Made by a program: the position numbers and the translations under genes
Origin: Halichondria panicea
Taxonomy: Eukaryota > Porifera > Demospongiae > Suberitida > Halichondriidae
Length of the DNA stretch: 64,000 nucleotides
Direction of reading: 5' to 3'
Assembly: GCF_963675165.1 (NCBI RefSeq)
Contig: NC_087383.1
Span: 1,093,399-1,157,398, forward strand
The notes under the pieces: model-generated
What the model was told of the DNA's origin: nothing
The model's database searches: none
The model's input: only the letters and a program-made list of their open reading frames with translations
Part shown: positions 1,524 through 48,590 of the stretch, piece after piece
Layout: every line of letters starts with the position of its first letter
Position numbering within the stretch: position 1 is the first letter of the stretch

Positions 1524-3206
1524 ATGTATCAAGAAGAGCTGGAACACATGAAGGCTGCCATTGCAGATGAAGGAAAGAAGAGACACACACTCCAAAACCT
1601 CGACTGCTTTGTACTAGACAATTCCATAAGAGAGAGCACTGTAGGCCAATTGCGCGGTCACACCATCGAGAACAAATGGAAAATCTACAATGAAGTGAAG
1701 AAATGCGGCTTTAAGAACATCGTAGTCGCGGCTTTCTCACATATGACACGAGTTGATGACACGTTCATCAAAGAGCTGATGGAAAATGGTGAAGATCCAA
1801 GCACACTCTATGCATTCTCTGAAGTCACAGCAGGCATTTCGAAAGGAGTGATCGACAAAGAAACCGTACCAGTTGGTTTAGCTAAGATGAAAGAACATGG
1901 GCTAATAAACCCAATCATTGAAGTCGATCTTGCCAACACATCTGTCAATTGGGAGTCATGTTCAGTGAAAGATATTTGCGATTTGGTCATAAAATGGATT
2001 GAATGGTCTCGTACTAATCTTTCAAAGGATTCCAAAACATTCATCAACTTTAGGGATTTCCCGATAGCAATGACTCAAGTGCCAGAACGTGTGCTCGCTG
2101 CAGTTGACTACTTTGCATCCCTGCTACAGGAGAAACGATTGCTGGGTATCATTTTTGAGGAACCCACTGGAGACTACTTACCGGAAGAAGTTGGAGCATG
2201 GACGACTGCTGTACGAAAAGTGATGAATGCCAGGAAATGGAATGACGGGCTTTTGCTGGTTCACGTGCACAAGAAGTGGGGACTGGCTGAAACTGTACAA
2301 CTGGAGAGTTTATGCTGTGGAGCTGATGGTATTTGGGCCAGTCTAGCTGAAGAGGGAGCAGCCATGGGCCATGCTTGCTCATCCATCACCTTGATGAATC
2401 TAATTCGAATGGGGAACAAGAAAGTACTTGAGCGATATAACTGCACTCATCTGCGAAAAGCTGCAATAGCTGTTACTAATATCACTACCGGTGATGACCC
2501 TCACTCCAAGCAGGTGGTGTACGGGGAGAGAGCTTTAGATATTAGCTTTGATTTTGGCAGCATTGCTGGGGGCCTTGTGGGAAAAGGTGAATTCGATATT
2601 GCGGAATTCTTTGGTGAGAAGCCACCGGTTAGGATCAGCACACTTGCTTCAACTGCCATGATTATCACTCGGCTTAATGAGTTGTTTGGAAGCAATCCAC
2701 AATTCAACGAGCAGATCGCTGAAAAGATGAAAGAAGTTATGCTAGAAGATCTCCGTAGCAACAGGAAGGAAGAATACATGAGTGAAGCAGGCCTGGGTGT
2801 GTTGTTTGATCGATCTGGAGGAGAACTAACGAAGAAGATGGGAGATGTAATCGCTGACATGGAAGCAGGAACAGATCTTGAGAAACGCCTCGTTATGGAA
2901 GTTAAAGAGAGGTGGGACACATGGGACCTTCAAGATGAGGTACAGGGGGATGATGCCCTGCAGTTTGACTCATTCTACAATGGCTTCATGGCACCCTACT
3001 TTGGTTGTTTCAAATGCGATGATACTATGGCAGGACTAAAGGCAATAGACATGGATAATGATGGGTTAGTCGATTGGAACGAATTCCTTGTCTATCTGAA
3101 GTGGGCTATTCACGAATATGACATCAAAACTGCTGATGAGCTGTTGTCGATCACATTTCGTAAAGGAATTATTCCTGCCATGCGTGATGAACTACAACAG
3201 TCTTAA
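1524..3206 (+). CDS. DRE-TIM (HMGL-like) protein with C-terminal EF-hand, copy 1 (alpha subtype)
   Basis: This is a 560-residue intronless ORF. Residues about 25-300 look like a DRE-TIM barrel of the HMG-CoA lyase, isopropylmalate synthase and pyruvate carboxyltransferase superfamily. The first-strand motif is D32-N-S-I-R36-E37, where the family has D-x-T-L-R-(D/E). The metal-binding HxH is H247/H249 in VHVHKKWGLAE, matching the family pattern HxHxxxGxA. Near residue 509 a canonical EF-hand loop, DMDNDGLVDWNE, has acidic residues at positions 1, 3, 5 and 12 and glycine at 6. No signal peptide or membrane segment is visible. The substrate is unknown; a C-C bond lyase or acyltransferase possibly tuned by calcium is an inference. 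The start is the ATG of MYQEEL, the same in all copies. This is the first of four copies and is followed by POLG 3' exons. Confidence 0.85.
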   Translation: MYQEELEHMKAAIADEGKKRHTLQNLDCFVLDNSIRESTVGQLRGHTIENKWKIYNEVKKCGFKNIVVAAFSHMTRVDDTFIKELMENGEDPSTLYAFSEVTAGISKGVIDKETVPVGLAKMKEHGLINPIIEVDLANTSVNWESCSVKDICDLVIKWIEWSRTNLSKDSKTFINFRDFPIAMTQVPERVLAAVDYFASLLQEKRLLGIIFEEPTGDYLPEEVGAWTTAVRKVMNARKWNDGLLLVHVHKKWGLAETVQLESLCCGADGIWASLAEEGAAMGHACSSITLMNLIRMGNKKVLERYNCTHLRKAAIAVTNITTGDDPHSKQVVYGERALDISFDFGSIAGGLVGKGEFDIAEFFGEKPPVRISTLASTAMIITRLNELFGSNPQFNEQIAEKMKEVMLEDLRSNRKEEYMSEAGLGVLFDRSGGELTKKMGDVIADMEAGTDLEKRLVMEVKERWDTWDLQDEVQGDDALQFDSFYNGFMAPYFGCFKCDDTMAGLKAIDMDNDGLVDWNEFLVYLKWAIHEYDIKTADELLSITFRKGIIPAMRDELQQS

Positions 3207-4012
3207 AAAATTGCTCTCTGGAACACATAATTAGTAGCTTAATTAGATCTATAGTAATGTTAACATACTATTTGTAGTGTGAACTTATAGCAACACAATT
3301 ATAATTACTCCAACGGTTCTCTTTGTACCTTGTGTAATTAATTAATGTTTATAATTATTTGACTACGCCAAAACATCATTATAATTATATGCAATTAGCT
3401 ATATGATACCCAGACAGATGTAATAGTCATCAGTTTCAATGTTTACACAAGTATATACAATATGCACAGTGTCGCGTTATAGGCCCATCACCTCATAAGT
3501 GCATGCACTGACATATAATAGGACTCAGGTGAAAAGGACACTCGTTCCACTCTCAGCAACCAGGGTTGTAGTCACACCAGCTAGCTGAAAGTGATGGGGC
3601 ATGGAGTGTTACAATGATTACCAATATCAGTAACATTGAAAGAAGCGCAGTTGTACAATTTGTAAACAGAAGCCTTATTAATGCTGTACGGCACAACATT
3701 TTAATAATGTTAAAAAAACCTCAAGTTTAGCTATACATAGCTGATATAATTATCGCCTTTAAAAACAGGACTACTATAGGCATAAATTATGCCTCGGTGT
3801 GCGCATGCACAAGCGAGGTATACGGTATAGCGTGTTTGTGTGTCTGTCTGTGTAGATTGCTACAGCTGTTCAATCTGTTTTAAATACAAGTAAGAGCGCT
3901 TCCATAGTTCTAGTCACGGATTTCGTTTTTTGGATTTTGATTCTGCTTTCATAGTGTTGTTGTTAAGAATCATAAAGCTGGAAGTTCATATATACCCTCT
4001 CAATGGTTGCAG
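3207..4012. other. Spacer between DRE-TIM copy 1 and POLG exons
   Basis: No gene is seen. The stretch is AT-rich and about 90 percent like 13741-14594, the same place in unit 2. It contains the TGCCTCGGTG repeat near 3790. If DRE-TIM is nested in POLG, this is POLG intron sequence. Confidence 0.5.
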
Positions 4013-5774
4013 GTACAAGCTGAGCAAAAAGGGTCAGAGTGTGGCAGGGGACATGGATCTGCCTCTGGTGGACAGCTGTCTAGTCTCCCACGACAACTGG
4101 AAGCTAATCTGTGACGTGCATGGATACCACAGGTATACACGACTACCCAGCATCAGATTACCCTAATTAGCCTTGTATGTACATGTACGTGTGCACTCAG
4201 AATTGGAATGTTCATGTAGCTATTATTATAATAGTTATCGCCTCTTGATCACCATTTTTTAAAGACGGCGATGCATGTACATGTATTTTAGCAGATCGTG
4301 CCATGCAGTAACTACCACCCTGGCCTCCTAGTTGTCGACCTAGCATTATGATTATTTTCATTGCCCCCCCCCTTCTCTTTCCTCCCTCCAGTGCCAGTAA
4401 GATGCTCTCCTCCCGAGTGTGGTACGGTGGTAGTGAGTCTCACCTGTTCAACAAGCTGGAGAGTATTGCCCTCTCTGACCATCCCTCCACCCCCGTACTG
4501 GCCGCCTCCCTCACAAGAGCACTCGAGAAACAACACGTCGGAAATCAGGTGACTAAATATTGCATCTTATTTAGCTATTGAAACATTAAAGCTGTATAGA
4601 AGAATTTTACAAGCAAGGAACTACTGTACACTAGCTCTGTATGCAGTAAATTATTTGATCTATATTGTACTACGCAACTTTATTTGTATTTTGTCTATTT
4701 TCTTGGCTCTCGATTAGTATTATTTCTGCTATTCCCCGCTCTCACACGCACACAACAGTTCCAGCCCAGTCGAGTGAACTGGGTGGTCCAGTCGTCAGCC
4801 GTCGACTATCTCCATCTTCTCCTCGTCTCTTGTCAATGGATGTTTCGATGCTTCAACATCTCCGGCCGTTTCTGCATCAGCATCCATGATGAGGTAACTA
4901 TAGGTCATACACACATGTACACATGTACTGCTCAAGTCGTACTATGTATAGCTAGCTATACACATATAATATGACATTATGTGTATAATATTTTCCATAT
5001 CTTTCATATTAGCATGAAATTTAGAAATCAGAAGTTAGGCCACTAGAACTATGACTGTCTGAAGCTGCTGTATAATTATATGCTAATTGTACATACATGT
5101 GTGTGTATTAACGACACTCCCCCCACACGCAGGTACGCTATCTAGTAAAGAGTGAGGACCGGTACAGAGCAGGCCTAGCTCTCCAGTACGCCAACCTGTA
5201 CACCAGAGCTATGTTCTCACACAAGCTGGGACTTCAAGACCTACCAATGGTACACGATTATCCGGCCGCTATTGATAATTTTTGTAGTGTACGGTACTTT
5301 CGTAATTGTACGTGTAATTCATGACTGTGTTATTAGGAAAGGGGCGTGTAAAATGTGTGTGTGGCTTATTATTACCCCACCCCCTCTCTCCCTTGCAGTC
5401 TGTGGCGTTCTTCAGTGGTGTGGATGTGGACAGAGTACTTAGGAAGGAGGCCACCCTCGATTGCAAGACGCCCTCCAACCCTCTCGGCATGGAAAAAGGA
5501 CACGGCATCCCCAATGGTAACGACACATGCACGAGTATAAATCAAGCTATATATGGTACAAAGAGTTAAAAGTGCATATTTCCATCCTATAATTATACAA
5601 TACCTTAAATTGGTTGATACTTCTCATAAAGACCCCACGAAATATGCTGAGTTAGCACTCCTACTTCATTCCTATACTTATTATTTATTCATGTTATGTT
5701 TTTACCACTCTCCAGGTGAGGTGCTGGATATCTATCAACTGATTGACAAGACAAACGGACAATTAATTAAATAA
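4013..5774 (+). CDS. POLG: DNA polymerase gamma catalytic subunit, last six exons (unit 1, partial)
   Basis: Six exons join in frame: 4013-4132, 4392-4548, 4759-4893, 5133-5249, 5399-5516 and 5716-5774, giving about 235 residues to a TAA. The protein matches the C-terminal part of the mitochondrial replicative polymerase: [29 protein letters not shown], the catalytic motif C SIHDE (end of exon 3), [58 protein letters not shown] and [12 protein letters not shown]. The exonuclease domain, linker and motifs A and B are absent. All splice sites are GT-AG. The upstream exons would lie left of the window, with DRE-TIM copy 1 inside the intervening intron. Unit 1 is the best candidate for the working 3' end, because units 2 and 3 have broken upstream exons; this is an inference. 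Confidence 0.8.
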
Positions 5775-5881
5775 TTTGTGTTTTATTTTTGTGGTATCAA
5801 AGACTGTCACATTGTATCATTTTTTATGCTCGTAAAATGATTAACAATAATTTATTGACAGTCAGGACATATTAAAGTGAT

Positions 5882-5981
5882 CGTTGGCAATTTCTTTCTT
5901 TACTGCCTCCACCCCGCGCTGACAGCTGCCGACAATACTCTACTTCCGTCTATCCATCACACTCTCCGCCATTGCCTTCAC
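5882..5981 (-). pseudogene. ARL15: Relic of ARL15 last exon (unit 1)
   Basis: Read on the minus strand from 5981 after a CAG acceptor, the sequence gives VKAMAESVMDRRK and then a TAG in place of the tryptophan codon found in the intact gene. It goes on as SIVGSCQRGVEAVKKEIAN. The rest of ARL15 is missing. The same nonsense change is found in unit 2, so units 1 and 2 share an ancestor that excludes unit 3. Confidence 0.75.
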
Positions 5982-6157
5982 CTGCATACACGGGGGAGTT
6001 ATTGTTTACCACTAATTTGTGCTAATTATAACTGTAGCTATAAATGAGTATAATACGCCCACGCACTACTTCCGGTCTGACATCTCTACTGTAGCCACAA
6101 TCACAGCTTTTGCTATTTTTAAATCCTCAATCTCAATTCAACTGACACACATTGGCC

Positions 6158-6985
6158 TTTTCTTATGGAAAGCCACCTGGGTCAAAAATAGAGTATCAGC
6201 ATCAAGGGCCAGACTGTTAGCAATCAGTGATTCCAGGAAATCATGTACTAGCAATCAGTGATTCCAGGAAATCGATCCAGCAATCAGTGATTCTAGGAAA
6301 TGGATAGGCCTGCAATTGATTACCAGTACAGTACTGTGATCCTGTAATCGATGCACACCCGCAGTGGCTAGTGATGTCGCAATGCTTGCAGCTTTGCAGT
6401 CACGTGACCCATTGCCAAAGTCAGATGTTGACAGGATACTACTTTTAACACAGAAATCCCTTCCTGCAGCTTTTTTGCTTGGTCTTCTGTGAAGGACATA
6501 GTTGTTGTAGGGAGCAACTGCCACGTGGCCGTGGCTTGTCTTGCAATAACTTTGTCATGTGACTAGACTAATATGCCATGAGGCCCATGACTGGAGGAGC
6601 ACCGATTACCTGAAATCACTGGTTTGCTAGGGGTGCATGCATCAGTTACCTGGAATCAGTTGCTGGCGCATCGATTCACTAGGTCTAGATGTTGCAGGCC
6701 CCCACCCATTTCCTAGCATCACTGATTGCTAGTACATCGATTTCCTGGAATCACTGATTGCTAGTACATCGATTTCCTGGAATCATTGATTGCTAGTACA
6801 TCGATTTCCTGGAATCACTGATTGCTAGTACATCGATTTCCTGGAATCATTGATTGCTAGTACATCGATTTCCTGGAATCACTGATTGCTAGTACATGGA
6901 TTTCCTGGAATCACTGATTGCTGACAGTCTGGTCCTTGATGCTGATACTCTATTTTTGACCCAGGTGGCGTTCCATATTTTCTTA
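6158..6985. mobile_element. Foldback/MITE insertion with long inverted repeats and target duplication
   Basis: The element spans about 6166-6977 and is flanked by TTTTCTTA at 6158-6165 and 6978-6985. The sister unit near 16705 has the uninterrupted empty site with a single TTTTCTTA. The terminal inverted repeats are about 70 bp, starting with GGAAAGCCACCTGGGTC and its counterpart near 6972. Inside each arm are tandem copies of an approximately 32-bp unit containing AATCACTGATTGCTAGTACA (three inverted copies at 6210-6300, about seven at 6700-6920). An alternative reading is a 6-bp duplication with TATGG...CCATA ends. No transposase is encoded, so it is non-autonomous. Confidence 0.85.
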
Positions 6986-7244
6986 CTAAGGCCACACCAA
7001 ATTGATCTTATGTTTCACGGACTTTTAATCCAAAACAGACCAGGGTGGCAGGCAAAAAAAGAAAAAAATTGATGAATATCATTATTAAACCATAAACGGA
7101 GTCACAACACACCACAAAAAATCACTTTACACAACAAGGTAGTAATTTTAAATTTGGCAAATTTTGATGTTAAATTAAAGCTTCCTTGTCTAATAAAAGC
7201 GAAGCAAAAGCTAAAAAGCTTGAACTTACACGTTGGCAGCTAGC

Positions 7245-7414
7245 TAACTACACACGGCCTTTATTTGACTAAATTATGGTCGTTTCTATGGAGCAGGGAC
7301 ACCGTTCATCGAGCTGCTCCTACGGACGTTTAACCCCTCCCTCACTGCGGCAGAGGTAACGGAGAAAGCTGAGCTACCGGCTGTATATACATGATCCACC
7401 AAAGGAGTTAGAAT
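7245..7414 (+). pseudogene. POLG: POLG exon with polymerase motif B, broken (unit 2)
   Basis: In frame the exon reads [17 protein letters not shown] and [18 protein letters not shown], which matches helix O/motif B of family A polymerases and the following region of animal POLG. It ends with a GTAAGT donor after 7414, in phase with the POLG exon at 14595. One TGA lies just before NYGR, and a second lies within a 9-bp insertion near 7391, so this copy is dead. The 5' edge of the exon is approximate. Confidence 0.7.
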
Positions 7415-7899
7415 GTAAGTAGCCAATCGTGTAATGTGCTGTTCTAAGAACTCTGTGTGTGATTATGCCATGGTGTGTGTGTGTATAATTATAATTATGC
7501 GCAAGTGAGGTATACGGTACATTAGCCTCGATCCCAGGCCGCTCTTCCTCGAAGGCTTTTTGAGGCCTTGTGAAGGAGGCTAACGGTGTGTCTGTCTGTG
7601 TATAGAGTGTTACAGCTGCTCAATAATAAATGAAGTGCAAGTAAGAGCTTCTATATAGGCTAGTTGTTTGTTAGCTGCAAGAGTCAGAAAATAGCTGCAA
7701 AGCTGTATGCCAGAACAGCAGCCATTGTGAACTCTGACCTCTATGCAGCAATGTCATAACAATACTAAACTTCCTGTCATCATAGATCTATCCTTGAAAA
7801 TTGAAGATCATCTCTAGCCATTAGACTGCTGTTTCATTAAGCTTCTCTTCCATAACACTGTTTTACTCGTTGCTCTAAATTGTGTTTAATGTATATGGA

Positions 7900-8780
7900 A
7901 TTATGTACATGGAATTGTATTGTCACTGTCAACAATACTATAATTATTATACAATATACAAAGTAAACAAATGACATACACTGTAAACCAAGCTGATGTT
8001 GAGCAAGGCTCTGTGTTGAACTTGGGACATAGACATTGTTATGCAATAAGAAGAAAGAATATATTCAGTACATTAAAGATTCAAGTATAAATGTTACCCT
8101 AAGCTAAAGTTTGTGCACAAATTGATCTTGAAACCAATGGACAGCAGAAGTATTTCCAGCCAGGAAGTACTTACATGGAATTGTATTGTCACTGTCAACA
8201 ATACTATAACTATTATACAATATACAAAGTAAACAAATGACATACACTGTAAACCAAGCTGATGTTGAGCAAGGCTCTGTGTTGAACTTGGGACATAGAC
8301 ATTGTTATGCAATAAGAAGAAAGAATATTCAAGATTCAAGTATAAATGTTACCCTAAGCTAAAGTTTGTGCACAAATTGATCTTGAAACCAATGGACAGC
8401 AGGAAGTATTTCTAGCCAGGAAGTACTTACATGGAATTGTATTGTCACTGTCAACAATACTATAATTATTATACAATATACAAAGTAAACAAATGACATA
8501 CACTGTAAACCAAGCTGATGTTGAGCAAGGCTCTGTGTTGAACTTGGGACATAGACATTGTTATGCAATAAGAAGAAAGAGTACATTCAAGATTCAAGTA
8601 TAAATGTTACACTAAGCTAAAGTTTGTGCACAAATTGATCTTGAAACCAATGGACAGCAGGGAGTATTTCCAGCCAGGAAGTTTGTGCACAAATTGATCT
8701 TGAAACCAATGGACAGCAGGGAGTATTTCCAGCCAGGAAGTTTGTGCACAAATTGATCTTGAAACCAATGGACAGCAGGA
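7900..8780. repeat. Tandem repeats of about 240 bp with nested 60-bp repeats
   Basis: Three head-to-tail copies of a unit of about 240 bp, with starts near 7905, 8170 and 8428, contain TGGAATTGTATTGTCACTGT and CAAGCTGATGTTGAGCAAGG. At 8620-8780 a sub-segment of about 60 bp, GTTTGTGCACAAATTGATCT onward, is repeated three times. The orthologous stretch of unit 3 (17620-18290) has only two copies. Confidence 0.8.
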
Positions 8781-8969
8781 AGTACTTCTGACCATTCTAC
8801 TGTGGGCATTGTATATAGAAGTGCATCCATGGTGGTCAGATATACTCCTATTCATGGCACTCAGCTTGTTGTACCTACCGGATTCTTGTGCATTAATTGT
8901 CTATATATAGAAGTGCATGGAAGTTGGATGCTCCCCTATTCATGCACCTAACCGGATAAAGTAGCCTTG

Positions 8970-9187
8970 TGCATTGTCTAGAATGTTTTGCGAGCATCAA
9001 ACATTTGCGAACTTTGCGATGGTTGATCAATTCGCAACAATAAAATCCGCAAAACCTAGATTATTACTAGTAAATACACACGATCCTTGCCAGAACGCAA
9101 TAGTTAGATCGCAAAGGGTCAACATTTCTGCTGATTTGGCTCATTTGCAAAGGTTTTTCATCCGCAAAACATTCTAGTAATACGGTA
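8970..9187. mobile_element. MITE with TCTAGAATGTTTTGCG terminal inverted repeats
   Basis: The left end TCTAGAATGTTTTGCG and the right end CGCAAAACATTCTAGT are inverted repeats. A near-identical copy sits at 18470-18681 in unit 3. A degenerate relative with the same right end is at about 42225-42390 in DHX34 intron 6. No coding capacity is visible. Confidence 0.65.
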
Positions 9188-9690
9188 TATAGAAGTGCGT
9201 AGGAATTGGATACTCCTATTTGTGCACTCCTACCCACACGTAATTTGATAGTTACGCAACTTTGTTAAACCGCACACGCCACATGATGATGTTATGCAGC
9301 TAGTTAAATTCCACTAGAACAAAACTTGATTAGTCCCTTCCCTTGTGTATGTAGGACTGCGTGGCCAGCGAGTCTACTGGACAACGTAGCCATTGTCTAG
9401 ATTGAACTGCAGAGATACTACTTTCAACCTTGACTACAACATTTCCTGGGCCATAAGTTTACTCAATTTTAAAACTTCAAATACCATTGGATTCCTTCCT
9501 TTCAACCTTGACCATAGAATTTCCGGGGCCAAACTCAACGTAAATAAACAAATAAACATGGTAATTATATAAGCACCATAGACTATAATAATATATAGTG
9601 TCCTTTAAACTGCCTGAACGTGATAAGTTAAGATTGTAACGGTATTAAAGTGGAGCAGTTTATTGTTAAGCTTAGTGTTGTGCACATGCA

Positions 9691-11373
9691 ATGTATCAAG
9701 AAGAGCTGGAACACATGAAGGCTACCATTGCAGATGAAGGGAAGAAGAGACACACACTCCAAAACCTCGACTGCTTTGTACTAGACAATTCCATAAGAGA
9801 GAGCACTGTAGGCCAATTGCGCGGTCACACCATCGAGAACAAATGGAAAATCTACAATGAAGCGAAGAAATGCGGCTTTAAGAACATCATAGTCGCGGCC
9901 TTCTCGCATATGACACAAGTTGATGACATGTTCATCAAAGAGCTAATGGAAAATGGTGAAGATCCAAGCACACTCTATGCATTCTCTGAAGTCACAGCAG
10001 GCATTTCGAAAGGAGTGATCGACAGAGAAACCATACCAGTTGGTTTAGCTAAGATGAAAGAACATGGGCTAATAAACCCAATCATTGAAGTCGATCTTGC
10101 CAACAAATCTATCAACTGGGAGTCATGTTCAGTGAAAGATATTTGCGATTTGGTCATGAAATGGATTGAATGGTCTCGTACTAATCTTTCAAAGGATTCC
10201 AAAATTTTTGTCAACTTTAGGGATTTCCCGATAGCAATGACTCAAGTGCCAGAACGTGTACTCGCTGCAGTTGACTACTTTGCATCCCTGCCACAGGAGA
10301 AACGATTGCTGGGTATCATTTTTGAGGACCCTACTGGAGACTACTTACCGGAAGAAGTTGGAGCATGGACGACAGCTGTACGAAAAGTGATGAATGCCAG
10401 GAAATGGAATGACGGGCTTTTGCTGGTTCACGTGCACAAGAAGTGGGGACTGGCTGAAACTGTACAACTGGAGAGCTTATCCTGTGGAGCTGATGGTATT
10501 TGGGCCAGTCTAGCTGAAGAGGGAGCAGCCATGGGCCATGCTTGCTCATCCATCACCCTGATGAATTTAATTCGAATGGGAAACAAAAAAGTACTTGAGC
10601 GATATAACTGCACCTATCTGCGAAAAGCTGCAATAGCTGTTACTAATATCACTACTGGTGATGACCCTCACCCCAAGCAGGTGGTGTACGGGGAGAGAGC
10701 TTTAGATATTAGTTTTGATTTTGGTGGTATCGCTGGGGGCCGTGTGGGAAAAGGTGAATTTGATATTGCGAAATTCTTTGGTGAGGAACCACCTGTTAGA
10801 ATCAGCACACTTGCTTCAACTGCCATGATTATCACTCGGCTCAAAGAGCTGTTTGGAAGCAATCCACAATTCAACGAGCAGATAGCTGAAAAGATGAAAG
10901 AAGTTATGCTGGAAGATCTCCGTAACAACAGGAAGGAAGAGTACATGAGTGAAGCAGGCCTGGGTGTGCTGTTTGATCGATCTGGAGGGAAACTAACGAA
11001 GAAGATGGGAGATGTAATTGCTGACATGGAAGCAGGAACAGATTTTGAGAAACTCCTAGTTGAGGAAGTCAAAGAGAGGTGGAACACATGGGACCTTCAA
11101 GACGAGGTACATGGGAACGATGCTCTGCAGTTTGACTCGTTCTACAATGGCTTCATGGCACCCTACTTTGGTTGTTTCATATGCGACGATACTATGGCAG
11201 GACTAAAGGCAATAGACATGGATAATGATGGGTTGGTCGAATGGAAGGAATTCCTTGCCTATCTGAAGTGGGCTATTCGCGAATATAAGGTCAAGACGGC
11301 TGATGAGCTGTTGTCGATCACATTTCGTAAAGGAATCATTCCTGCTATGCGTGATGAACTATGTCAGTCTTAA
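9691..11373 (+). CDS. DRE-TIM (HMGL-like) protein with EF-hand, copy 2 (beta subtype)
   Basis: This is a 560-residue intact, intronless ORF, collinear with copy 1. The DNSIRE, VHVHKKWGLAE and EF-hand (DMDNDGLVEWKE) motifs are all kept. It shares with copy 4, against copies 1 and 3, IIFEDPTGDY, the C-terminal stretch EYKVKTADELL and the end DELCQS, so it is the beta subtype. It lies in the interval between a broken POLG motif-B exon (7245) and POLG 3' exons (14595). Unlike copy 1 it is followed directly by another family member, not by POLG exons. Function is inferred only at superfamily level. Confidence 0.85.
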   Translation: MYQEELEHMKATIADEGKKRHTLQNLDCFVLDNSIRESTVGQLRGHTIENKWKIYNEAKKCGFKNIIVAAFSHMTQVDDMFIKELMENGEDPSTLYAFSEVTAGISKGVIDRETIPVGLAKMKEHGLINPIIEVDLANKSINWESCSVKDICDLVMKWIEWSRTNLSKDSKIFVNFRDFPIAMTQVPERVLAAVDYFASLPQEKRLLGIIFEDPTGDYLPEEVGAWTTAVRKVMNARKWNDGLLLVHVHKKWGLAETVQLESLSCGADGIWASLAEEGAAMGHACSSITLMNLIRMGNKKVLERYNCTYLRKAAIAVTNITTGDDPHPKQVVYGERALDISFDFGGIAGGRVGKGEFDIAKFFGEEPPVRISTLASTAMIITRLKELFGSNPQFNEQIAEKMKEVMLEDLRNNRKEEYMSEAGLGVLFDRSGGKLTKKMGDVIADMEAGTDFEKLLVEEVKERWNTWDLQDEVHGNDALQFDSFYNGFMAPYFGCFICDDTMAGLKAIDMDNDGLVEWKEFLAYLKWAIREYKVKTADELLSITFRKGIIPAMRDELCQS

Positions 11374-12058
11374 AAGATTGCTCTCTGGAACACATAATTA
11401 TAGTAGCTTAATTAGTAATGTTGTACATGAACATAATTTTTATTGCATGCATTATCTATAGAAGTGCGTGGGAGTTAGATACTCCAAAATAAATATATAC
11501 ATAAAGTACATTCAAGATTCCAAGTATAAAACGTTGAATCTGAAACTGCATAACCAAATGACAACAGGAAGTATTTCCCCTTTACTATGTGTACGCACTT
11601 CTATAAACAATGCACACAGTAAACAGGAAATACTTCCTGTTGTCATTTGGTTATGCAGTTTCAAATTCCATTTGTGTAACATTTTATACTTGGAATCTAT
11701 ATTTATTTCGGAGTATATCCGACTCCCACTGTGTGCATGGCCAGCTATAGTCTTCTTGACAACGAAGCCTTGTGCATTGCATGTCTATATATAGATATAG
11801 AACTGCAGAGATATACTCCTTTCTTGACTATAGAATTTCCGAGGCCATAGTTTAAAAATTCCTTCTTTATAACCTTGAATTTCCGGGATCGATTTCAACG
11901 CAAATATAGACTTTAGTCTGCATATAAATATGATAGTTATAAGCACCTCAGACTATATATATATATATATAGTTTCCTTTAAACTGCCTGAACGTGATAA
12001 GTTAAGATTGTGAAACGGTGAAGCAGTTTATTGTTAAGCTTAGTGTTGTGCACATGCA
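11374..12058. other. Spacer between DRE-TIM copies 2 and 3
   Basis: No gene is seen. It holds the palindromic element at 11460-11745. After it comes a degenerate version of the upstream region of the beta copies (TGCAGAGATA...CCTTTAAACTGCCTGAACGTG, 11800-12000). The TATTAAAG box seen before copies 2 and 4 has been deleted here. Confidence 0.5.
11460..11745. mobile_element. Palindromic (foldback) element
   Basis: The two halves are imperfect reverse complements. The left arm contains CTGCATAACCAAATGACAAC and the right arm GTTGTCATTTGGTTATGCAG; the outer parts GGGAGTTAGATACTCC and GGAGTATATCCGACTCCC also pair. It could form a hairpin of about 125 bp per arm. It lies just downstream of copy 2. 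Confidence 0.75.
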
Positions 12059-13740
12059 ATGTATCAAGAAGAGCTGGAACACATAAAGGCTGTCATTGCA
12101 GATGAAGGAAAGAAGAGACACACACTCCAAAACCTCGACTGCTTTGTACTGGACAATTCCATAAGAGAGAGCACTGTAGGCCAATTGCGTGGTCACACCA
12201 TCGAGAACAAATGGAAAATCTACAATGAAGTGAAGAAATGCGGCTTTAAGAACATTATAGTCGCGGCTTTCTCGCATATGACACGAGTTGATGACATGTT
12301 TATCAAAGAGCTAATGGAAAATGGTGAAGATCCAAGCACACTCTATGCATTCTCTGAAGTCACAGAAGGCATTTCGAAAGGATTGATCGACAGAGAAACC
12401 ATACCAGTTGGTCTAGCTAAGATGAAAGAACATGGGCTAATGAACCCAATCATTGAAGTCGATCTTGCCAACACATCTGTCAATTGGGAGTCATGTTCAG
12501 TGAAAGATATTTGCGATTTGGTCATAAAATGGATGAATGGTCTCGTACTAATCTTTCAAAGGATTCCAAAACATTCATCAACTTTAGGGATTTCCCAATA
12601 GCAATGACTCAAGTGCCAGAACGTGTGCTCGCTGCAGTTGACTACTTTGCATCCCTGCTACAGGAGAAACGATTGCTGGGTATCATTTTTGAGGAACCCA
12701 CTGGAGACTACTTACCGGAAGAAGTTGGAGCATGGACGACTGCTGTACAAAAAGTGATGAATGCCAGGAAATGGAATGACGGGCTTTTGCTGGTTCACGT
12801 GCACAAGAAGTGGGGACTGGCTGAAACTGTACAACTGGAGAGCTTATGCTGTGGAGCTGATGGTATTTGGGCCAGTCTAGCTGAAGAGGGAGCAGCCATG
12901 GGCCATGCTTGCTCATCCATCACCTTGATGAATCTAATTCGAATGGGGAACAAGAAAGTACTTGAGCGATATAACTGCACTCATCTGCGAAAAGCTGCAA
13001 TAGCTGTTACTAATATCACTACCGGTGATGACCCTCACTCCAAGCAGGTGGTGTACAGGGAGAGAGCTTTAGATATTAGCTTTGATTTTGGCAGCATTGC
13101 TGGGGGCCTTGTGGGAAAAGGTGAATTTGATATTGCGGAATTCTTTGGTGAGAAACCACCGGTTAGGATCAGCACACTTGCTTCAACTGCCATGATTATC
13201 ACTCGGCTCAAAGAGCTGTTTGGAAGCAATCCACAATTCAACGAGCAGATCGCTGAAAAGATGAAAGAAGTTATGCTGGAAGATCTCTGTAGCAACAGGA
13301 AGGAAGAATACATGAGTGAAGCAGGCCTGGGTGTGTTGTTTGATCGATCTGGAGGGAAACTAACGAAGAAGATGAGAGATGTAATCGCTGACATGGAAGC
13401 AGGAACAGATCTTGAGAAACGCCTCGTTATGGAAGTTAAAGAGAGGTGGGACACATGGGACCTTCAAGACGAGGTACAGGGGGATGATGCTCTGCAGTTT
13501 GACTCGTTCTACAATGGCTTCATGGCACCCTACTTTGGTTGTTTCAAATGCGACGATACTATGGCAGGACTAAAGGCAATAGACATGGATAATGATGGGT
13601 TGGTCGATTGGAACGAATTCCTTGTCTATCTGAAGTGGGCTATTCACGAATATGACATCAAAACTGCTGATGAGCTGTTGTCGATCACATTTCGTAAAGG
13701 AATCATTCCTGCCATGCGTGATGAACTACGACAGTCTTAA
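12059..13740 (+). pseudogene. DRE-TIM/EF-hand gene, copy 3 (alpha subtype), 1-bp frameshift
   Basis: The copy is collinear and nearly identical to copy 1, including the EEPTGDYLPEE and DWNEF residues typical of the alpha subtype. One T is missing at about 12533, in the codons for KWIEWS. The frame from the ATG therefore ends at 12601 after 180 residues, while the downstream frame is open from 12484 to 13740. The predicted short product would lack the HxH motif and the EF-hand. Apart from this one base the copy looks intact, so the frameshift is either recent or an assembly error. The TATA-like box present before copies 2 and 4 is also missing upstream. Confidence 0.8.
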
Positions 13741-14594
13741 AAAATTGCTGTCTGGAACACATAATTAGTAGCTTAATTAGATCTATAGTAATGTTAACAT
13801 ACTATTTGTAGTGTGAACTTATAGCAACACAATTATAATTACTCCAACGTTTCTCTTTGTACCTTGTGTACTTATAAGTAATGTTTATAATTATTTGACT
13901 ACGCCAAAACATCATTATAATTATATGCAATTAGCTATATGATACCCAGACAGATGTAATAGTCATCAGTTTCAATGTTTACACAAGTATATACAATATG
14001 CACAGTGGTCGCGTTATAGGGCCATCACCTCATAAGTGCACTGATATATAATAGGACTCAGGTGAAAAGGACACTCGTTCCACTCTCAGCAACCAGGGTT
14101 GTAGTCACACCAGCTAGCTGAAAGTGATGGGGCATGGAGTGTTACAATGATTACCAATATCAGTAACATTGAAAGAAGCGCAGTTGTACAATTTGTAAAC
14201 AGAAGCCTTATTAATGCTGTACTGCACAACATTTTAATAATGTTAAAAAAACCTCCAGTTTAGCTATACATAGCTGATATAATTATCGCCTTTAAAAACA
14301 GGACTACTATAGGCATAAATTATGCCTCGGTGTGCGCATGCACAAGCGTAGCGTGTTTGTGTGTCTGTCTGTGTAGATTGCTACAGCTGTTCAATCTGTT
14401 TTAAATACAAGTAAGAGCGCTTCCATAGTTCTAGTCACGGATTTCATTTTTTGGATTTTGATTCGCAAAATAATGCTTAGAGGTTTGGTGTCTCCACCCA
14501 GGTATTAGCACCCGTGGTGCTTTCATAGTGTTATAGTATTGTTGTTAAGAATCATAAAGCTGGAAGTTCATATATACCCTCACAACGGTTGCAG
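13741..14594. other. Spacer between DRE-TIM copy 3 and POLG exons (unit 2)
   Basis: No gene is seen. It is collinear with 3207-4012. It differs by an extra segment of about 55 bp at 14462-14520. The TGCCTCGGTG repeat lies at about 14323. Confidence 0.5.
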
Positions 14595-16371
14595 GTACAA
14601 GCTGAGCAAAAAGGGTCAGAGTGTGGCAGGGGACATGGATCTGCCTCTGGTGGACAGCTGTCTAGTCTCCCACGACAACTGGAAGCTAATCTGTGAAGTG
14701 CATGGATACCACAGGTACACGACTACCCAGCATCAGATTACCCTAATTAGCCTTGTATGTACATGTACGTGCATGTGCACTTAGAATTGGAATGTTCATG
14801 TAGCTATTATTATAATAGTTATCGCCTCTTGATCACCATTTTTTAAAGACGGCGATGCATGTACATGTATTTTAGCAGATCGTGCCATGCAGCAACTTCC
14901 ACCCTGGCCTCCTAGTTGTCGACCTAGCATTATGATTATTTTCATTGCCCCCCCCTCCCTCTTCTTTTTCCTCCCTCTAGTGCCAGCAAGATGCTCTCCT
15001 CCCGAGTGTGGTACGGTGGTAGTGAGTCTCACCTGTTCAACAAGCTGGAGAGTATTGCCCTCTCTAACCATCCCTCCACCCCCGTACTGGCCGCCTCCCT
15101 CACAAGAGCACTCGAGAAACAACACGTCGGAAATCAGGTGACTAAATATTGCATCTTATTTAGCTATTGAGCTGTATAGAAGAATTTTACAAGCAAGGAA
15201 CTATACTGTACACTAGCTCTGTATGCAGTAAATTATTTGATCTATATTGTACTACGCAATTTTATTTGTATTTTGTCTATTTTCTTGCCTCTCGATCAGC
15301 TGCAATAGTATTATTTCTGCTATTCCCCGCTCTCACACACACACAACAGTTCCAGCCCAGTCGAGTGAACTGGGTGGTCCAGTCATCAGCCGTTGACTAC
15401 CTCCATCTTCTCCTCGTCTCTTGTCAATGGATGTTCCAATGCTTCAACATCTCCGGCCGTTTCTGCATCAGCATCCATGATGAGGTAACTAGGTCATACA
15501 CACATGTACACATGTACTGCTCAAGTCGTACTATGTAGCTAGCTATACACATATAATATGACATTATGTGTATAATATTTTCCATATCTTTCATATTAGC
15601 ATGAAATTTAGAAATCAGAAGTTAGGCCACTAGAACTATGACTGTCTGAAGCTGCTGTATAATTATATGCTAATTGTACATATATGTATGTGTAGTAACG
15701 ACACTCTCCCCACACGCAGGTACGCTATCTAGTGAAGAGTGAGGATCGGTACAGAGCAGGCCTAGCTCTCCAGTATGCCAACCTGTACACCAGAGCTATG
15801 TTCTCCCACAAGCTGGGACTTCAAGACCTACCAATGGTACACGATTATCTGCATGGCCGCTGTTGATGATTTTTGTAGTGTACGGTACTTTCGTAATTGT
15901 ACGTGTAATTCATGACTGTGTTATTAGGAAAGGGGCGTGTAAAATGTGTGTGGCTTATTATTGCCCCACCCCCTCTCTCCCTTGCAGTCTGTGGCGTTCT
16001 TCAGTGGTGTGGATGTGGACAGAGTACTTAGGAAGGAGGCCACCCTCGATTGCAAGACGCCCTCCAACCCTCTCGGTATGGAAAAAGGACACGGCATCCC
16101 CAATGGTAACGACACATGCACGAGTATAAATCAAGCTATATATGGTACAAAGAGTTAAAAGTGCATGCATATTTCCATCCTATAATTATACAATACCTTA
16201 AATTGGTTGGTACTTCTCATAAAGACCCCACGAAATATGCTGAGTTAGCACTCCTACTTCATTCCTATATATACTTATTATTTGTTCATGTTATGTTTTT
16301 ACCACTCTCCAGGTGAGGTGCTGGATATCTATCAACTGATTGACAAGACAAACGGACAATTAATTAAATGA
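14595..16371 (+). pseudogene. POLG: POLG last six exons, unit 2
   Basis: The exons 14595-14714, 14981-15137, 15350-15484, 15720-15836, 15988-16105 and 16313-16371 have exactly the lengths of unit 1 (120, 157, 135, 117, 118, 59) and join in one open frame ending in TGA instead of TAA. Motif C (SIHDE) is kept. The exon that should precede it (7245-7414) has two stops, and two DRE-TIM genes lie in between, so a full polymerase cannot be made from this unit. Transcribed as an alternative 3' end it could still matter, but that needs RNA evidence. I call it a duplicated gene fragment rather than a decayed gene. Confidence 0.7.
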
Positions 16372-16479
16372 TTTGTGTTTATTTTTGTGGTATCAAAGAC
16401 TGTCACAGTGTATCATTTTTTATGCTCGTAAAGTGATTAACAATAATTGATTGACCGTCAGGACATAATTATTAAAGTG

Positions 16480-16585
16480 ATCGTTGGCAATTTCTTTCTT
16501 TACTGCCTCCACCCCGCGCTGACAGCTGCCGACAATACTCTACTTCCGTCTATCCATCACACTCTCCGCCATTGCCTTCACCTGC
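16480..16585 (-). pseudogene. ARL15: Relic of ARL15 last exon (unit 2)
   Basis: Like the unit 1 relic, it reads VKAMAESVMDRRK and then TAG on the minus strand, followed by SIVGSCQRGVEAVKKEIAN. It has the same AGG and TAG changes against the intact exon at 23587-23712. No other ARL15 exon is near. Confidence 0.75.
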
Positions 16586-16974
16586 ATACACGGGAGAGTT
16601 TAATATTGTTTACCATTAATTTGTGCTAATTATAACTGTAGCTATAATCACAGCTTTCGCTATTTTTAACCTCAATCTCAATTTTCAACACACATTGGCC
16701 TTTTCTTACTAAGGCCACACCAAATTGATCTTATATTTCACGGACTTTTAATCCAAAACAGACCAGGGTGGCGGGCAAAAAAAGAAAAAAATTGATGAAT
16801 ATCATTATAAAACCACAAACGGAGTCACAACACACCACAAAAAGTCACTTTACACAACAAGGTAGTAGTTTTAAATTTGGCAAATTTTGATGTTAAAGCT
16901 TCCTTGTCTATACTAATGAAAGCGAAGCAAAAGCTAAAAAGCTTGAACTTACACGTTAGCAGCTAGCTAACTAC

Positions 16975-17126
16975 ACACGGCCTTTATTCGACTCAATTAT
17001 GGTCGTTTCTATGGAGCAGGGACACTGTTCATCGATGCTCCTACGGACGTTTAACCCCTCCCTCACTGCGGCAGAGGTAACGGAGAAAGCTGAGCTACTG
17101 TATATATCCACCAAAGGAGTTAGAAT
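16975..17126 (+). pseudogene. POLG: POLG exon with polymerase motif B, broken (unit 3)
   Basis: The frame gives [14 protein letters not shown] and, after a 2-bp deletion at about 17035, EKAELLYISTKGVR ending in a GTAAGT donor after 17126. The end joins in phase to the exon at 21587 (MYKLSKKGQ), as in animal POLG. The 5' end (RLNYGR) and 3' end are better kept than in unit 2, but the deletion leads to TAA a few codons later, so the exon is dead. The left border is approximate. Confidence 0.7.
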
Positions 17127-17995
17127 GTAAGTAGCCAATCGTGTAATGTGCTGTTCTAAGAACTCTGTGTGTGATTATGCCATGGACTGGTGTGTGTGTG
17201 TGTATAATTATATGCGCAAGTGAGGTATACGGTGCATTAGCCTCGATCCCAGGCCGCTTTTCCTCGAAGGCTTTTGAGGCCTTGTGAAGGAGGCTAACGG
17301 TGTGTCTGTCTGTGTATAGAGTGTTACAGCTGCTCAATGATAAATGAAGTGCAAGTAAGAGCTTCTATAGGCTAGTTGTTTGTTAGCTGCAAGAGTCAGA
17401 AAATAGCTGCAAAGCTGTACGGCAGCAGCCATTGTGAACTCTGACCTCTATGCAGCAATGTCATAACAATACTAAACTTCCTGTCATCATAGATCTATCC
17501 TTGAAAATTGAAGATCATGCATCTCTAGCCATTAGACTGCTGTTTCATTAATTAAGCTCCTCTTCCATAACACTGTTTTACTCGTTGCTCTAAATTGTGT
17601 TTAATGTATATGGAATTATGTACATGGAATTGTATTGTCACTGTCAACAATACTATAATTATTATACAATATACAAAGTAAATAAAATATTAATGACATA
17701 CACTGTAAACCAAGCTGATGTTGAGCAAGGCTCTGTGTTGAACTTGGGACATAGACATTGTTATGCAATAAGAAGAAAGAATATATTCAGTACATTAAAG
17801 ATTCAAGTATAAATGTTACCCTAAGCTAAAGTTTGTGCACAAATTGATCTTGAAACCAATGGACAGCAGGAAGTATTTCCAGCCAGGAAGTACTTACATG
17901 GAATTGTATTGTCACTGTCAACAATACTATAATTATTATACAATATACAAAGTAAACAAATGACATACACTGTAAACCAAGCTGATGTTGAGCAA

Positions 17996-18120
17996 GGCTC
18001 TGTGTAGCCTCGGTCCCAGGCCGTTTTTTTTTAATAGAACGAAGTTGAAAAATACGTAGTAGGCGACCTATAGTGTTCAATTGGAGACGGATCGGCCTGG
18101 GATCGAGGCTAGGCTCTGTG
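17996..18120. mobile_element. 107-bp MITE with 9-bp target duplication
   Basis: The element at 18005-18111 has inverted ends TAGCCTCGGTCCCAGGCCG and CGGCCTGGGATCGAGGCTA. It is flanked by GGCTCTGTG at 17996-18004 and 18112-18120. The empty site occurs in the sister repeats near 8270 and 17735. A 9-bp duplication suggests a Mutator-like relation. Fragments with the same end lie near 7525, 17236 and 21910. Confidence 0.85.
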
Positions 18121-18469
18121 TTGAACTTGGGACATAGACATTGTTATGCAATAAGAAGAAAGAATATATTCAGTACATTCAAGATTCAAGTATAAATGTT
18201 ACACTAAGCTAAAGTTTGTGCACAAATTGATCTTGAAACCAATGGACAGCAGGAAGTATTTCCAGCCAGGAAGTACTTCTGACCATTCTACTGTGTGCAT
18301 TGTATATAGAAGTGCATGGGGTCGGATATACTCCTATTCATGGCACTCAGCTTGTCGTACCCACCACCGGATAAAGTATATCCTTGTGCATTGTCTATAT
18401 ATAGAAGTGCATGGAAGTTGGATGCTCCCCTGTTCATACACCTAACCGGATAAAGTAGTCTTGTGCATT

Positions 18470-18681
18470 GTCTAGAATGTTTTGCGAGCATCAAACATTT
18501 GCAAACTTTGCGATGGTTGATCAATTCGCAACAATAAAATCCGCAAAACCTATATTATTACTAGTAAATACACACGATCCTTGCCAGAACGCAATAGTTA
18601 GATCGCAAAGGGTCAAAATTTCTGCTGATTTGGCTCATTTGCAAAGGTTTTTCATCCGCAAAACATTCTAGTAATACGGTA
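18470..18681. mobile_element. MITE with TCTAGAATGTTTTGCG ends, unit 3 copy
   Basis: This is the same element as at 8970-9187, in the same place relative to the following DRE-TIM gene. It was therefore present before the unit duplication. Confidence 0.6.
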
Positions 18682-19166
18682 TATAGAAGTGCGTAGGAGT
18701 TGGATACTCCTATTCGTGCACTCCTACCCACACATCATTTGATAGTTACGCAACTTTGGTCAATCGCACACGCCACATGATGATGTTATGTAGCTAGTTA
18801 AATTCCACTAGAACAAAACTTGATTAGTCCCTTCCCTTGTGGATGTAGGACTGTGTTGCCAGCCAGTCTACTGGACAACGTAGCCATTGTCTAGATTGAA
18901 CTGCAGAGATACTCCTTTCAACCTTGACTACAACATTTCCTGGGCCATAAGTTTAGTCAATTTTAAAACTTCAAATACCATTGGATTCCTTCCTTTCAAC
19001 CTTGACCACAGAATTTCCGGGGCCGAACTCAACATAAATAAACATGGTAATTATATAAGCACCATAGACTATATAATATAGTGTCCTTTAAACTGCCTGA
19101 ACGTGATAAGTTAAGATATTGTGAAACGGTATTAAAGTGAAGCAGTTTATTAGTGTTGTACATGCA

Positions 19167-20879
19167 ATGTATCAAGAAGAGCTGGAACACATAAAGGCTG
19201 CCATTGCAGATGAAGGAAAGAAGAGACACACACTCCAAAACCTCGACTGCTTTGTACTGGACAATTCCATAAGAGAGAGTACTGTAGGCCAATTGCGCGG
19301 TCACACCATTGAGAACAAATGGAAAATCTACAATGAAGTGAAGAAATGCGGCTTTAAGAACATCATAGTCGCGGCTTTCTCACATATGACACGAGTTGAT
19401 GACATGTTCATCAAAGAGCTGATGGAAAATGGTGAAGATCCAAGCACACTCTATGCATTCTCTGAAGTCACAGCATGCATTTCGAAAGGAGTGATCGACA
19501 GAGAAACCATACCAGTTGGTTTAGCTAAGATGAAAGAACATGGGCTAATAAACCCAATCATTGAAGTCGATCTTGCCAATAAATCTGTCAACTGGGAGTC
19601 ATGTTCAGTGAAAGATATTTGCGATTTGGTCATGAAATGGATTGAATGGTCTCGTACTAATCTTTCAAAGGATTCCCAAATTTTCGTCAACTTTAGGGAT
19701 TTCCCGATAGCAATGACTCAAGTGCCAGAACGTGTACTCGCTACAGTTGACTACTTTGCATCCCTGCCACAGGAGAAACGATTGCTGGGTATCATTTTCG
19801 AGGACCCTACTGGAGACTACTTACCGGAAGAAGTTGGAGCATGGACAACAGCTGTACGAAAACTGATGAATGCCAGGAAATGGAATAACGGGCTTTTGCT
19901 GGTTCACGTGCACAAGAAGTGGGGACTGGCTGAAACTGTACAACTGGAGAGCTTATCCTGTGGAGCTGATGGTATTTGGGCCAGTCTAGCTGAAGAGGGA
20001 GCAGCCATGGGCCATGCTTGCTCATCCATCACCCTGACGAATTTAATTCGAATGGGAAACAAAAAAGTACTTGAGCGATATAACTGCACCTATCTGCGAA
20101 AAGCTGCAATAGCTGTTACTAATATCACTACTGGTGATGACCCTCACCCTAAGCAGGTGGTGTACGGGGAGAGAGCTTTAGATATTAGTTTTGATTTTGG
20201 TGGTATCGCTGGGGGCCGTGTGGGAAAAGGTGAATTCGATATTGCGAAATTCTTTGGTGAGAAACCACCGGTTAGAATCAGCACACTTGCTTCAACTGCC
20301 ATGATTATCACTCGGCTCAAAGAGCTGTTTGGAAGCAATCCACAATTCAACGAGCAGATAGCTGAAAAGATGAAAGAAGTTATGCTGGAAGATCTCCGTA
20401 GCAACAGGAAGGAAGAGTACATGAGTGAAGCAGGCCTGGGTGTGTTGTTTGATCGATCTGGAGGGAAACTAACGAAGAAGATGGGAGATGTAATTGCTGA
20501 CATGGAAGCAGGAACAGATTTTGAGAAACTCCTGGTTGCGGAAGTCAAAGAGAGATGGGACACATGGGACCTTCAAGACGAGGTACAGGGGGATGATGCC
20601 ATGCAGTTCGACTCATTCTACAATGGCTTCATGGCACCCTACTTTGGTTGTTTCAAATGCGACGATACTATGGCAGGACTAAAGGCAATAGACATGGATA
20701 ATGATGGGTTGGTCGAATGGAAGGAATTCCTTGCCTATCTGAAGTGGGCTATTCGCGAATATAAGGTCAAGACTGCTGATGAGCTGTTGTCGATCACATT
20801 TCGTAAAGGAATCATTCCTGCTATGCGTGATGAACTATGTCAGTCTGAAAAGATTGCTGTCTGGAAATTAGTAGCTTAA
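19167..20879 (+). CDS. DRE-TIM (HMGL-like) protein with EF-hand, copy 4 (beta subtype), extended C-terminus
   Basis: The ORF is intact and intronless from the MYQEEL ATG at 19167; 19137 is a GTG in frame upstream and an unlikely start. It is 570 residues. The first 560 are collinear with copy 2 (EDPTGDY, EYKVKTADELL, DELCQS). The TAA of the other copies is GAA here, so ten residues, EKIAVWKLVA, are added before a new TAA. DNSIRE, the HxH and the EF-hand loop are kept. One odd change is a cysteine in EVTACISKGV where the others have glycine. It is followed by POLG unit 3. Function is inferred only at superfamily level. Confidence 0.85.
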   Translation: MYQEELEHIKAAIADEGKKRHTLQNLDCFVLDNSIRESTVGQLRGHTIENKWKIYNEVKKCGFKNIIVAAFSHMTRVDDMFIKELMENGEDPSTLYAFSEVTACISKGVIDRETIPVGLAKMKEHGLINPIIEVDLANKSVNWESCSVKDICDLVMKWIEWSRTNLSKDSQIFVNFRDFPIAMTQVPERVLATVDYFASLPQEKRLLGIIFEDPTGDYLPEEVGAWTTAVRKLMNARKWNNGLLLVHVHKKWGLAETVQLESLSCGADGIWASLAEEGAAMGHACSSITLTNLIRMGNKKVLERYNCTYLRKAAIAVTNITTGDDPHPKQVVYGERALDISFDFGGIAGGRVGKGEFDIAKFFGEKPPVRISTLASTAMIITRLKELFGSNPQFNEQIAEKMKEVMLEDLRSNRKEEYMSEAGLGVLFDRSGGKLTKKMGDVIADMEAGTDFEKLLVAEVKERWDTWDLQDEVQGDDAMQFDSFYNGFMAPYFGCFKCDDTMAGLKAIDMDNDGLVEWKEFLAYLKWAIREYKVKTADELLSITFRKGIIPAMRDELCQSEKIAVWKLVA

Positions 20880-48117: not shown

Positions 48118-48590
48118 AAGTTTATTTTATGTCACTAGCTTCCATTATAGTTAATTCTGCTTTTTGGCATCAGTAAAGTTATGTCTATATTCACGAGTTA
48201 TCATGAATCAAAACAAATTGAAATGCTGTGGTAGTTTCCCTGGGTATTTTGTAGACATGCATGCTGCCATAACGTTGGATGTACATCCCTACATGTACAT
48301 GACAGATGGGTAATGATACATGTACTTACAAGACAACAGATGTTATAGGGTCATAGGTGGTGGTTTCCCTGGGGTTTTGCTGTATTCCAATAATGACAAA
48401 GCACTGCAGTACTATAAAAATAGTTAGTGCTCATGTACTTTGTGTCGAAGCTAAATCTGAATCTATAGTAAGTAAGTTGCTAATAAATTTGACATTGCTA
48501 TGCAATACACATCTATAGTATGCATCTTAATTGTGTAGTGTTATAGGTATATAATTATTCATGCATGATTGTTCTTACATCTCCAGCAAG
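48118..48590 (+). promoter_or_regulatory. Promoter and leader region of A1
   Basis: Upstream motifs GGTAGTTTCCC (48230-48240) and GGTGGTTTCCC (48359-48369) are followed by GCACTGCAG, then TATAAAAA (48413-48420). A possible leader exon ends at GTAAGT (48469), and a TCTCCAG acceptor lies just before CAAGATG (48591). The same order is found before A2 and A3. The element names are inferred from conservation. Confidence 0.5.

Follow-up and report, generated by a model that had tools for sequence, protein, structure and literature searches.

Ilborin-type genes of the sponge Halichondria panicea: a tandem array encoding a DRE-TIM-related barrel with an EF-hand

Ilborin and the closest described enzymes

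The S-antigen found in flagellated larval cells of the sponge Halisarca dujardini is ilborin, described by Borisenko et al. 2022 (PMC8864356) as an aldolase-type TIM barrel with a C-terminal EF-hand, 560–610 amino acids (aa) long and present as paralogues A–D in that species. Genes of the same architecture were analysed here in a stretch of 64,000 nucleotides from the genome of Halichondria panicea (contig NC_087383.1, positions 1,093,399 to 1,157,398 of the forward strand), referred to as a whole as the window. It carries four tandem copies of one ~560-aa gene, all on the + strand, three of them full-length and one frameshifted. According to PMC8864356, ilborin orthologues occur in sponges, cnidarians, ctenophores, echinoderms and Macrostomum, and the ilborin tree was rooted on two cyanobacterial proteins, which are the outgroup to all animals. 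The protein was predicted to be cytosolic, Arg35 and Glu36 were named as a pair (Glu occurs at this place in homocitrate synthase), and a single EF-hand motif was counted inside an EF-hand pair domain.

Judged by their translated sequences, the window genes are almost certainly ilborins. They have in common with the published proteins the barrel followed by the EF-hand, the length of 560–610 aa, several paralogues in a genome (as in many of the published species), the Arg-Glu pair, the metal His and the DxDxDG loop. The number of genes differs, with at least eight intact copies in the Halichondria genome against one to four in the published species for which a number is given, and the metal His are numbered 205 and 207 in PMC8864356 but 247 and 249 here. 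An earlier note on this DNA had called barrel and EF-hand an unusual domain pair; the pair is real, but it is not novel, having been published in 2022 as ilborin (PMC8864356). Because the family is already described there, the window genes would count as new members of it; what is new for the Halichondria genome is how many copies it has, their tandem mode of duplication and the bacterial relatives.

Two further groups of enzymes were compared. Homocitrate synthase and 2-isopropylmalate synthase share with ilborin a homologous barrel, the HxH motif and an acidic ligand directly after an Arg (a Glu in homocitrate synthase, PMC8864356), whereas identity in the profile alignment is only ~13%, and ilborin has a hydrophobic residue in the beta-2 Glu column, GH in place of GN and the C-terminal EF-hand. 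HMG-CoA lyase belongs to a common superfamily with ilborin, but ilborin falls below the Pfam cut-off, and a different gene of the host, matched in two pieces on contig C2, is HMG-CoA-lyase-like and bears the canonical PRDG.

Barrel, metal-site columns and EF-hand region

The firm assignment of the barrel comes from profile-profile comparison, as single-sequence Pfam searches were insufficient. A family profile of eight rows (A3) was compared with an alignment of five canonical-type enzymes (A4), consisting of E. coli LeuA, a second LeuA-like protein, a Streptomyces plasmid carboxyltransferase and two 4-hydroxy-2-oxovalerate aldolase look-alikes. Residues 26–387 were matched with a probability of 96.8% and an E-value of 2.9e-10. 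The A3 profile also matched 2-isopropylmalate synthase 6e1j (E 1.2e-4), homocitrate synthase 2ztj (E 0.013) and E. coli LeuA alone (probability 31.8%, E 4.9e-4). By this comparison the ilborin barrel is related to DRE-TIM metallolyases and Claisen-condensing enzymes, in agreement with the DRE-TIM barrel named in the earlier note.

In DRE-TIM enzymes the Asp after Arg, both His and an Asn serve as metal ligands. The profile alignment pairs DNSIRE with DTTLRD, HVH with HTH and GHA with GNC, and places E37, H247, H249 and H283 in the metal-ligand columns. The RE pair is invariant in all eight intact host copies, and R36 and E37 are also found in the three bacterial relatives that lack an EF-hand (described below); H247, H249 and H283 are present in the same eight copies, in the three EF-less relatives and in the ilborin of a bacterial metagenome-assembled genome (MAG). 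A metal site of D32, H247 and H249 had been proposed earlier. Both His lie in the HxH columns as proposed; D32 was misplaced, because it aligns with the Asp that opens the DxTLRD motif, and the ligand column is occupied by E37.

The second EF-hand loop is complete in 8/8 intact copies, joined to the barrel as first noticed. Residues 509, 511, 513, 514 and 520 are invariant and position 517 is D or E, and loop positions 1, 3, 5 and 12 (DxDxDG...E), an ilborin trait, are kept throughout. By eye, a degenerate hand (WDxWD...LxFDSF) precedes this loop, with a long, Arg-rich loop in the copy on contig C9; it has no acidic residue at the expected twelfth position, and the two hands are therefore not a canonical pair with two Ca2+-competent loops. 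Profile positions 466–537 and 447–556 match EF-hand proteins weakly (E 0.16 and 0.24). The region resembles an EF-hand pair in which a single site is functional.

From these residues we infer the following mechanism. The N-terminal ~430 residues would form the DRE-TIM barrel region, with a putative divalent-metal site of E37, H247 and H249 beside the conserved R36, and H283 perhaps as a fourth ligand. The barrel would probably make or break a carbon-carbon bond of a 2-oxo acid or an acyl thioester, the presumed substrates. The last ~100 residues would form the EF-hand pair, the second hand alone being Ca2+-competent, and because this hand can hold Ca2+, the ion probably modulates or stabilises the enzyme. 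That ilborin is an active metal enzyme is considered likely, whereas regulation by Ca2+ has a little better than an even chance. Taken as a whole, an array of ilborin genes encoding a metal-dependent, Ca2+-modulated barrel enzyme is the best explanation and a fairly probable one.

Several points weigh against it. The identification as ilborin was made by architecture and described residues and not by direct sequence alignment, and Ca2+-mediated regulation of energy metabolism is a proposal of the authors of PMC8864356 that needs experimental confirmation. With single sequences, all Pfam scores stayed below the cut-offs: copy 1 reached 18.1 bits for HMGL-like (PF00682, cut-off 29) and 20.2 bits for EF-hand_8 (cut-off 28), and copies 2, 3 (larger piece only) and 4 reached 18.8, 12.1 and 15.8 bits for HMGL-like. 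AlphaFold2 models had a mean predicted local distance difference test score of 41.8 (single sequence) and 43.2 (4-row alignment), too poor to use for placing the proposed metal residues in one site; in the first, strands end at residues 31 and 247, which a barrel would need, and the second has no strand at 243–247. The beta-2 Glu column of LeuA is hydrophobic here (V67 in copy 1) and the Asn of the LeuA GN motif is replaced by His (H283), for which reasons the known reactions are not transferable and catalysis may have been lost.

These two replacements would also fit a non-catalytic ilborin, a protein which has lost the reaction of the barrel and, being abundant, acts as a Ca2+ buffer or has a structural role. 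Its abundance points the same way: ilborin is reported to be the major protein of flagellated cells in larvae, and in one cell cluster of Amphimedon a single paralogue accounts for ~20% of the transcript counts (PMC8864356), above the need of most metabolic enzymes. We nevertheless consider loss of catalysis unlikely, as R36, E37, HxH and H283 are invariant in the eight intact host copies and kept in the EF-less bacterial relatives; residues of the metal site that are kept even without an EF-hand argue for selection on the active site itself.

Tandem duplication and selection in the host genome

The genome searched comprised 131 Mb in 39 contigs, and counts from the protein search are lower bounds. 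At least 12 rows were obtained, namely eight intact open reading frames (ORFs), copy 3 as two halves, and a truncated ORF and a stop-bearing fragment on contig C14. The intact ORFs (at least eight) are distributed over four contigs, with three in the window, two on C13, two on C14 and one on C9. The tandem family of the earlier note was thus found in the window, as three full-length ORFs and one frameshifted copy; four is the number of copies there and not the size of the family. Nucleotide identity between the window copies is 95–98%, whereas the C9 copy, one uninterrupted ORF of 593 aa, is only 51% identical. Copy 3 appears in the ORF listing as two frames (12059–12601 and 12484–13740). The ORF of copy 4 has 580 aa (19137–20879) and includes an internal ATG homologous to the start of the other copies, from which the gene is counted in Table 1; its 10 extra C-terminal residues result from the loss of the usual stop. 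Each of the eight intact copies is a single ORF, a statement that refers to the coding part, as an intron in the 5' untranslated region is possible.

The array grew by tandem DNA duplication, because the alignments between copies 1 and 3 (3.2 kb at 95%) and between copies 2 and 4 (2.75 kb at 94%) extend through the flanks. In a listing of 20 out of 32 repeat families, the shared flank blocks of copies 1 and 3 are 94–99% identical. A retrocopy origin of the array, one of the two origins suggested earlier, is rejected on account of these long non-coding stretches common to the members of each pair.

Retroposition was weighed separately for the dispersal of copies between contigs. There, blastn homology barely exceeds the ORF, extending in the comparison of copy 1 with the C13 copy L006 ~28 nt upstream of the ATG and 30 nt past the stop, and all eight intact copies consist of one ORF each. 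A single ORF needs no retroposition, however, because the bacterial relatives are naturally intronless, and copies inside the array share long flank stretches. By eye, patches of upstream homology between contigs were also seen, including TATA-like stretches, which a copy of an mRNA should lack, but identities of 20-nt ungapped upstream blocks (0.10–0.75) did not confirm them. Dispersal by retroposition is considered unlikely.

The ratio of nonsynonymous to synonymous substitution rates (dN/dS) was 0.19–0.32 in 8 of the 11 computed pairs, those with unsaturated dS (Fisher p 0.0041 to 7.7e-19); in the remaining three, which involve C9 or the MAG, synonymous sites were saturated. The window array is under purifying selection. 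Together with the conserved key metal-site and EF residues, this bears out the selection for function supposed earlier.

Bacterial relatives and origin

The bacterial homologues in PMC8864356 are the two cyanobacterial proteins, and the main text of that paper contains none of the terms 'intron', 'horizontal' and 'proteobacteri'. In the main text of PMC4784904, on prokaryotic genes in Amphimedon, HMGL and EF-hand are not mentioned.

Bacterial, archaeal and viral sequences were scanned with patterns that need exact peptide matches. The first bacterial scan gave 32 stretches and no relative, the second, of bacteria and archaea, 94 stretches and one relative. Three scans of viral contigs gave 11, 129 and 23 stretches and no relative, and a viral source was rejected. 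A phage search gave no match, and a plasmid search only four records at 25–28% identity and E 0.3 or worse. Rarity in bacteria is unproven, since the scans need exact peptides and missed the cyanobacterial ilborins named in PMC8864356.

A bacterial ilborin, L015, is located on contig JAAXKB010000050.1 of the Gammaproteobacteria MAG SW42618_bin_3. It is 61% identical to copy 1 over residues 108–555; its start is cut off by the contig end and its EF loop is complete. About 86 bases downstream lies an ORF of 1358 aa (L015:1458–5531) with matches to class III cyclase and AAA_16, weak matches to TPR, and a GGGAG stretch just before the ATG. This ORF was matched in 20 of 206 genomes of the MAG's family, the MAG included (E 1e-40 or better), and G261, G786 and G803 are among the genomes that match nearly the entire ORF, at 26–30% identity. 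Because of these near full-length matches within the family, the contig is very probably bacterial. The G+C contents of the MAG ilborin (0.50) and its neighbour (0.51) are below those of two other MAG contigs (0.54 and 0.56), so that a binning error among bacteria is possible.

Ilborin was found in 1/206 genomes of the family (E 1e-6), in 1/390 of the order, in 1/365 of the class (the latter at 1e-12), and in 1/398 of the phylum (1e-6). The single positive was always the same MAG, and the genome samples may overlap. Six other genomes gave weak matches (27–39 bits) in the family search. The order search also returned three proteins of ~435 aa (L018–L020) with 28–31% identity to copy 1. They share the R-E, HxH and GH residues with ilborin; the domain scan of the three gave no EF-hand match and no NCBIfam model near the cut-off. 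Directly downstream of two of these genes, in different genomes, a PAS-GGDEF gene is found on the same strand (L019:2868–3809 and L020:357–1295), identified by domain scan next to L019 and similar by eye next to L020, and L018 lies near an Hcp gene. Two weak matches of the order search were the aldolase-like L021 and L022, a small EF-hand protein that the MAG encodes separately; by eye, L021, L023, L024 and L061 look like ordinary aldolase or LeuA-type proteins. New here are the gammaproteobacterial MAG ilborin beside a cyclase-type gene and the ~435-aa EF-less relatives. The reaction of ilborin, a highly expressed sponge protein (PMC8864356), is still to be established, and the copy number, the diverged paralogue and the bacterial relatives with and without an EF-hand provide comparisons for the substrate search and for a bacteria-to-early-animal test. 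The EF-less forms are simple assay targets that would separate the role of the barrel from the contribution of the calcium hand.

An exchange of the window copies between bacteria and sponge, in either direction, rather than vertical inheritance together with C9, is suggested by several comparisons. Identity to copy 1 is 61% for L015 and 53% for C9 over the same columns. In trees that have the EF-less proteins on their far side, L015 groups with the window family and C9 stays outside, with support of 88/91 when all columns are used and of 81/80 when the shared barrel part is used and L011 omitted. L015 and the window copies have in common a 7-residue stretch in the GGIAGGRVGKGE region, which is missing from C9. 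The MAG is moreover the only carrier among the 206 searched family genomes, so the gene was probably gained in the MAG too. Approximately unbiased (AU) tests, however, did not reject monophyly of the host copies (p 0.122, and p 0.205 for the shared barrel part), and alignment is difficult in the GGIAGGRVGKGE indel region, where the EF-less relatives are shorter as well, by 4 columns. L015 is carried by a single MAG contig that ends inside the gene, and the published tree with two cyanobacterial outgroup ilborins fits vertical descent within animals (PMC8864356). On balance we hold the exchange to be possible but doubtful. The horizontal origin offered in the earlier note thus stands as a possibility, by the 61% identical bacterial relative and the trees, and not as established.

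A wider scenario may be drawn from gene context, with the EF-less form beside diguanylate cyclases and the EF-hand form beside an adenylate cyclase-like protein. A signalling-linked DRE-TIM enzyme of bacteria would have gained a Ca2+ switch, moved repeatedly between bacteria and early animals, and expanded in sponges as a Ca2+-gated metabolic family. We regard this as rather unlikely.

Table 1. Positions of ilborin genes, their conserved motifs and duplicated flanks in the window
Feature	Position	Strand	Remarks
Ilborin copy 1	1524..3206	+	560 aa, intact single ORF
Ilborin copy 2	9691..11373	+	560 aa, intact single ORF
Ilborin copy 3, pseudogene	12059..13740	+	frame split by one-base deletion at about position 475 of the coding sequence
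Ilborin copy 4	19167..20879	+	570 aa, usual stop lost
R36-E37 of copy 1	1629..1634	+	columns of Arg and Asp in the DRE-TIM RD motif (alignment to LeuA and relatives)
H247-x-H249 of copy 1	2262..2270	+	columns of the DRE-TIM metal HxH; invariant in alignments A1 and A3
Degenerate first EF-hand, copy 1	2913..2981	+	variable-length loop, Ser at expected twelfth position; by eye
Canonical EF-hand loop, copy 1	3048..3083	+	D509-x-D511-x-D513-G-x-x-D517-x-x-E520; loop residues, alignment
Non-coding flank of copy 1	3504..6000	.	duplicated downstream of copy 3 at 14037–16600
Non-coding flank of copy 3	14037..16600	.	duplicate of 3504–6000

Three arrays of tandem repeats, whose periods are 32, 256 and 59 bases, are located between copies 1 and 2 (6708–6922, 7906–8682 and 8620–8788, respectively). 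An element of ~110 bases (79% identical) flanks copy 1 at about 65–176 and 3786–3896, and similar stretches occur near some other copies. Some genes neighbouring the array in the window are animal-like by eye. Several paralogous long ORFs lie at 48555–63636; of these, 48591–50252 and 61462–63633 were scanned and had no Pfam match, and 51407–53671 and 56018–57487 contain many in-frame repeats with a unit of ~20 residues (MHLRLPPKAEASDNEVGPPS-like). A cathepsin-type search of the genome gave 77 matches, and most of the 20 inspected loci were of the CGSCWAF type, with CGSSWAF in L053. One of the 20, L059, is a cathepsin-like fragment in a stretch with stops that has CGASYAF at the active site, which we take to be a mark of silicatein.

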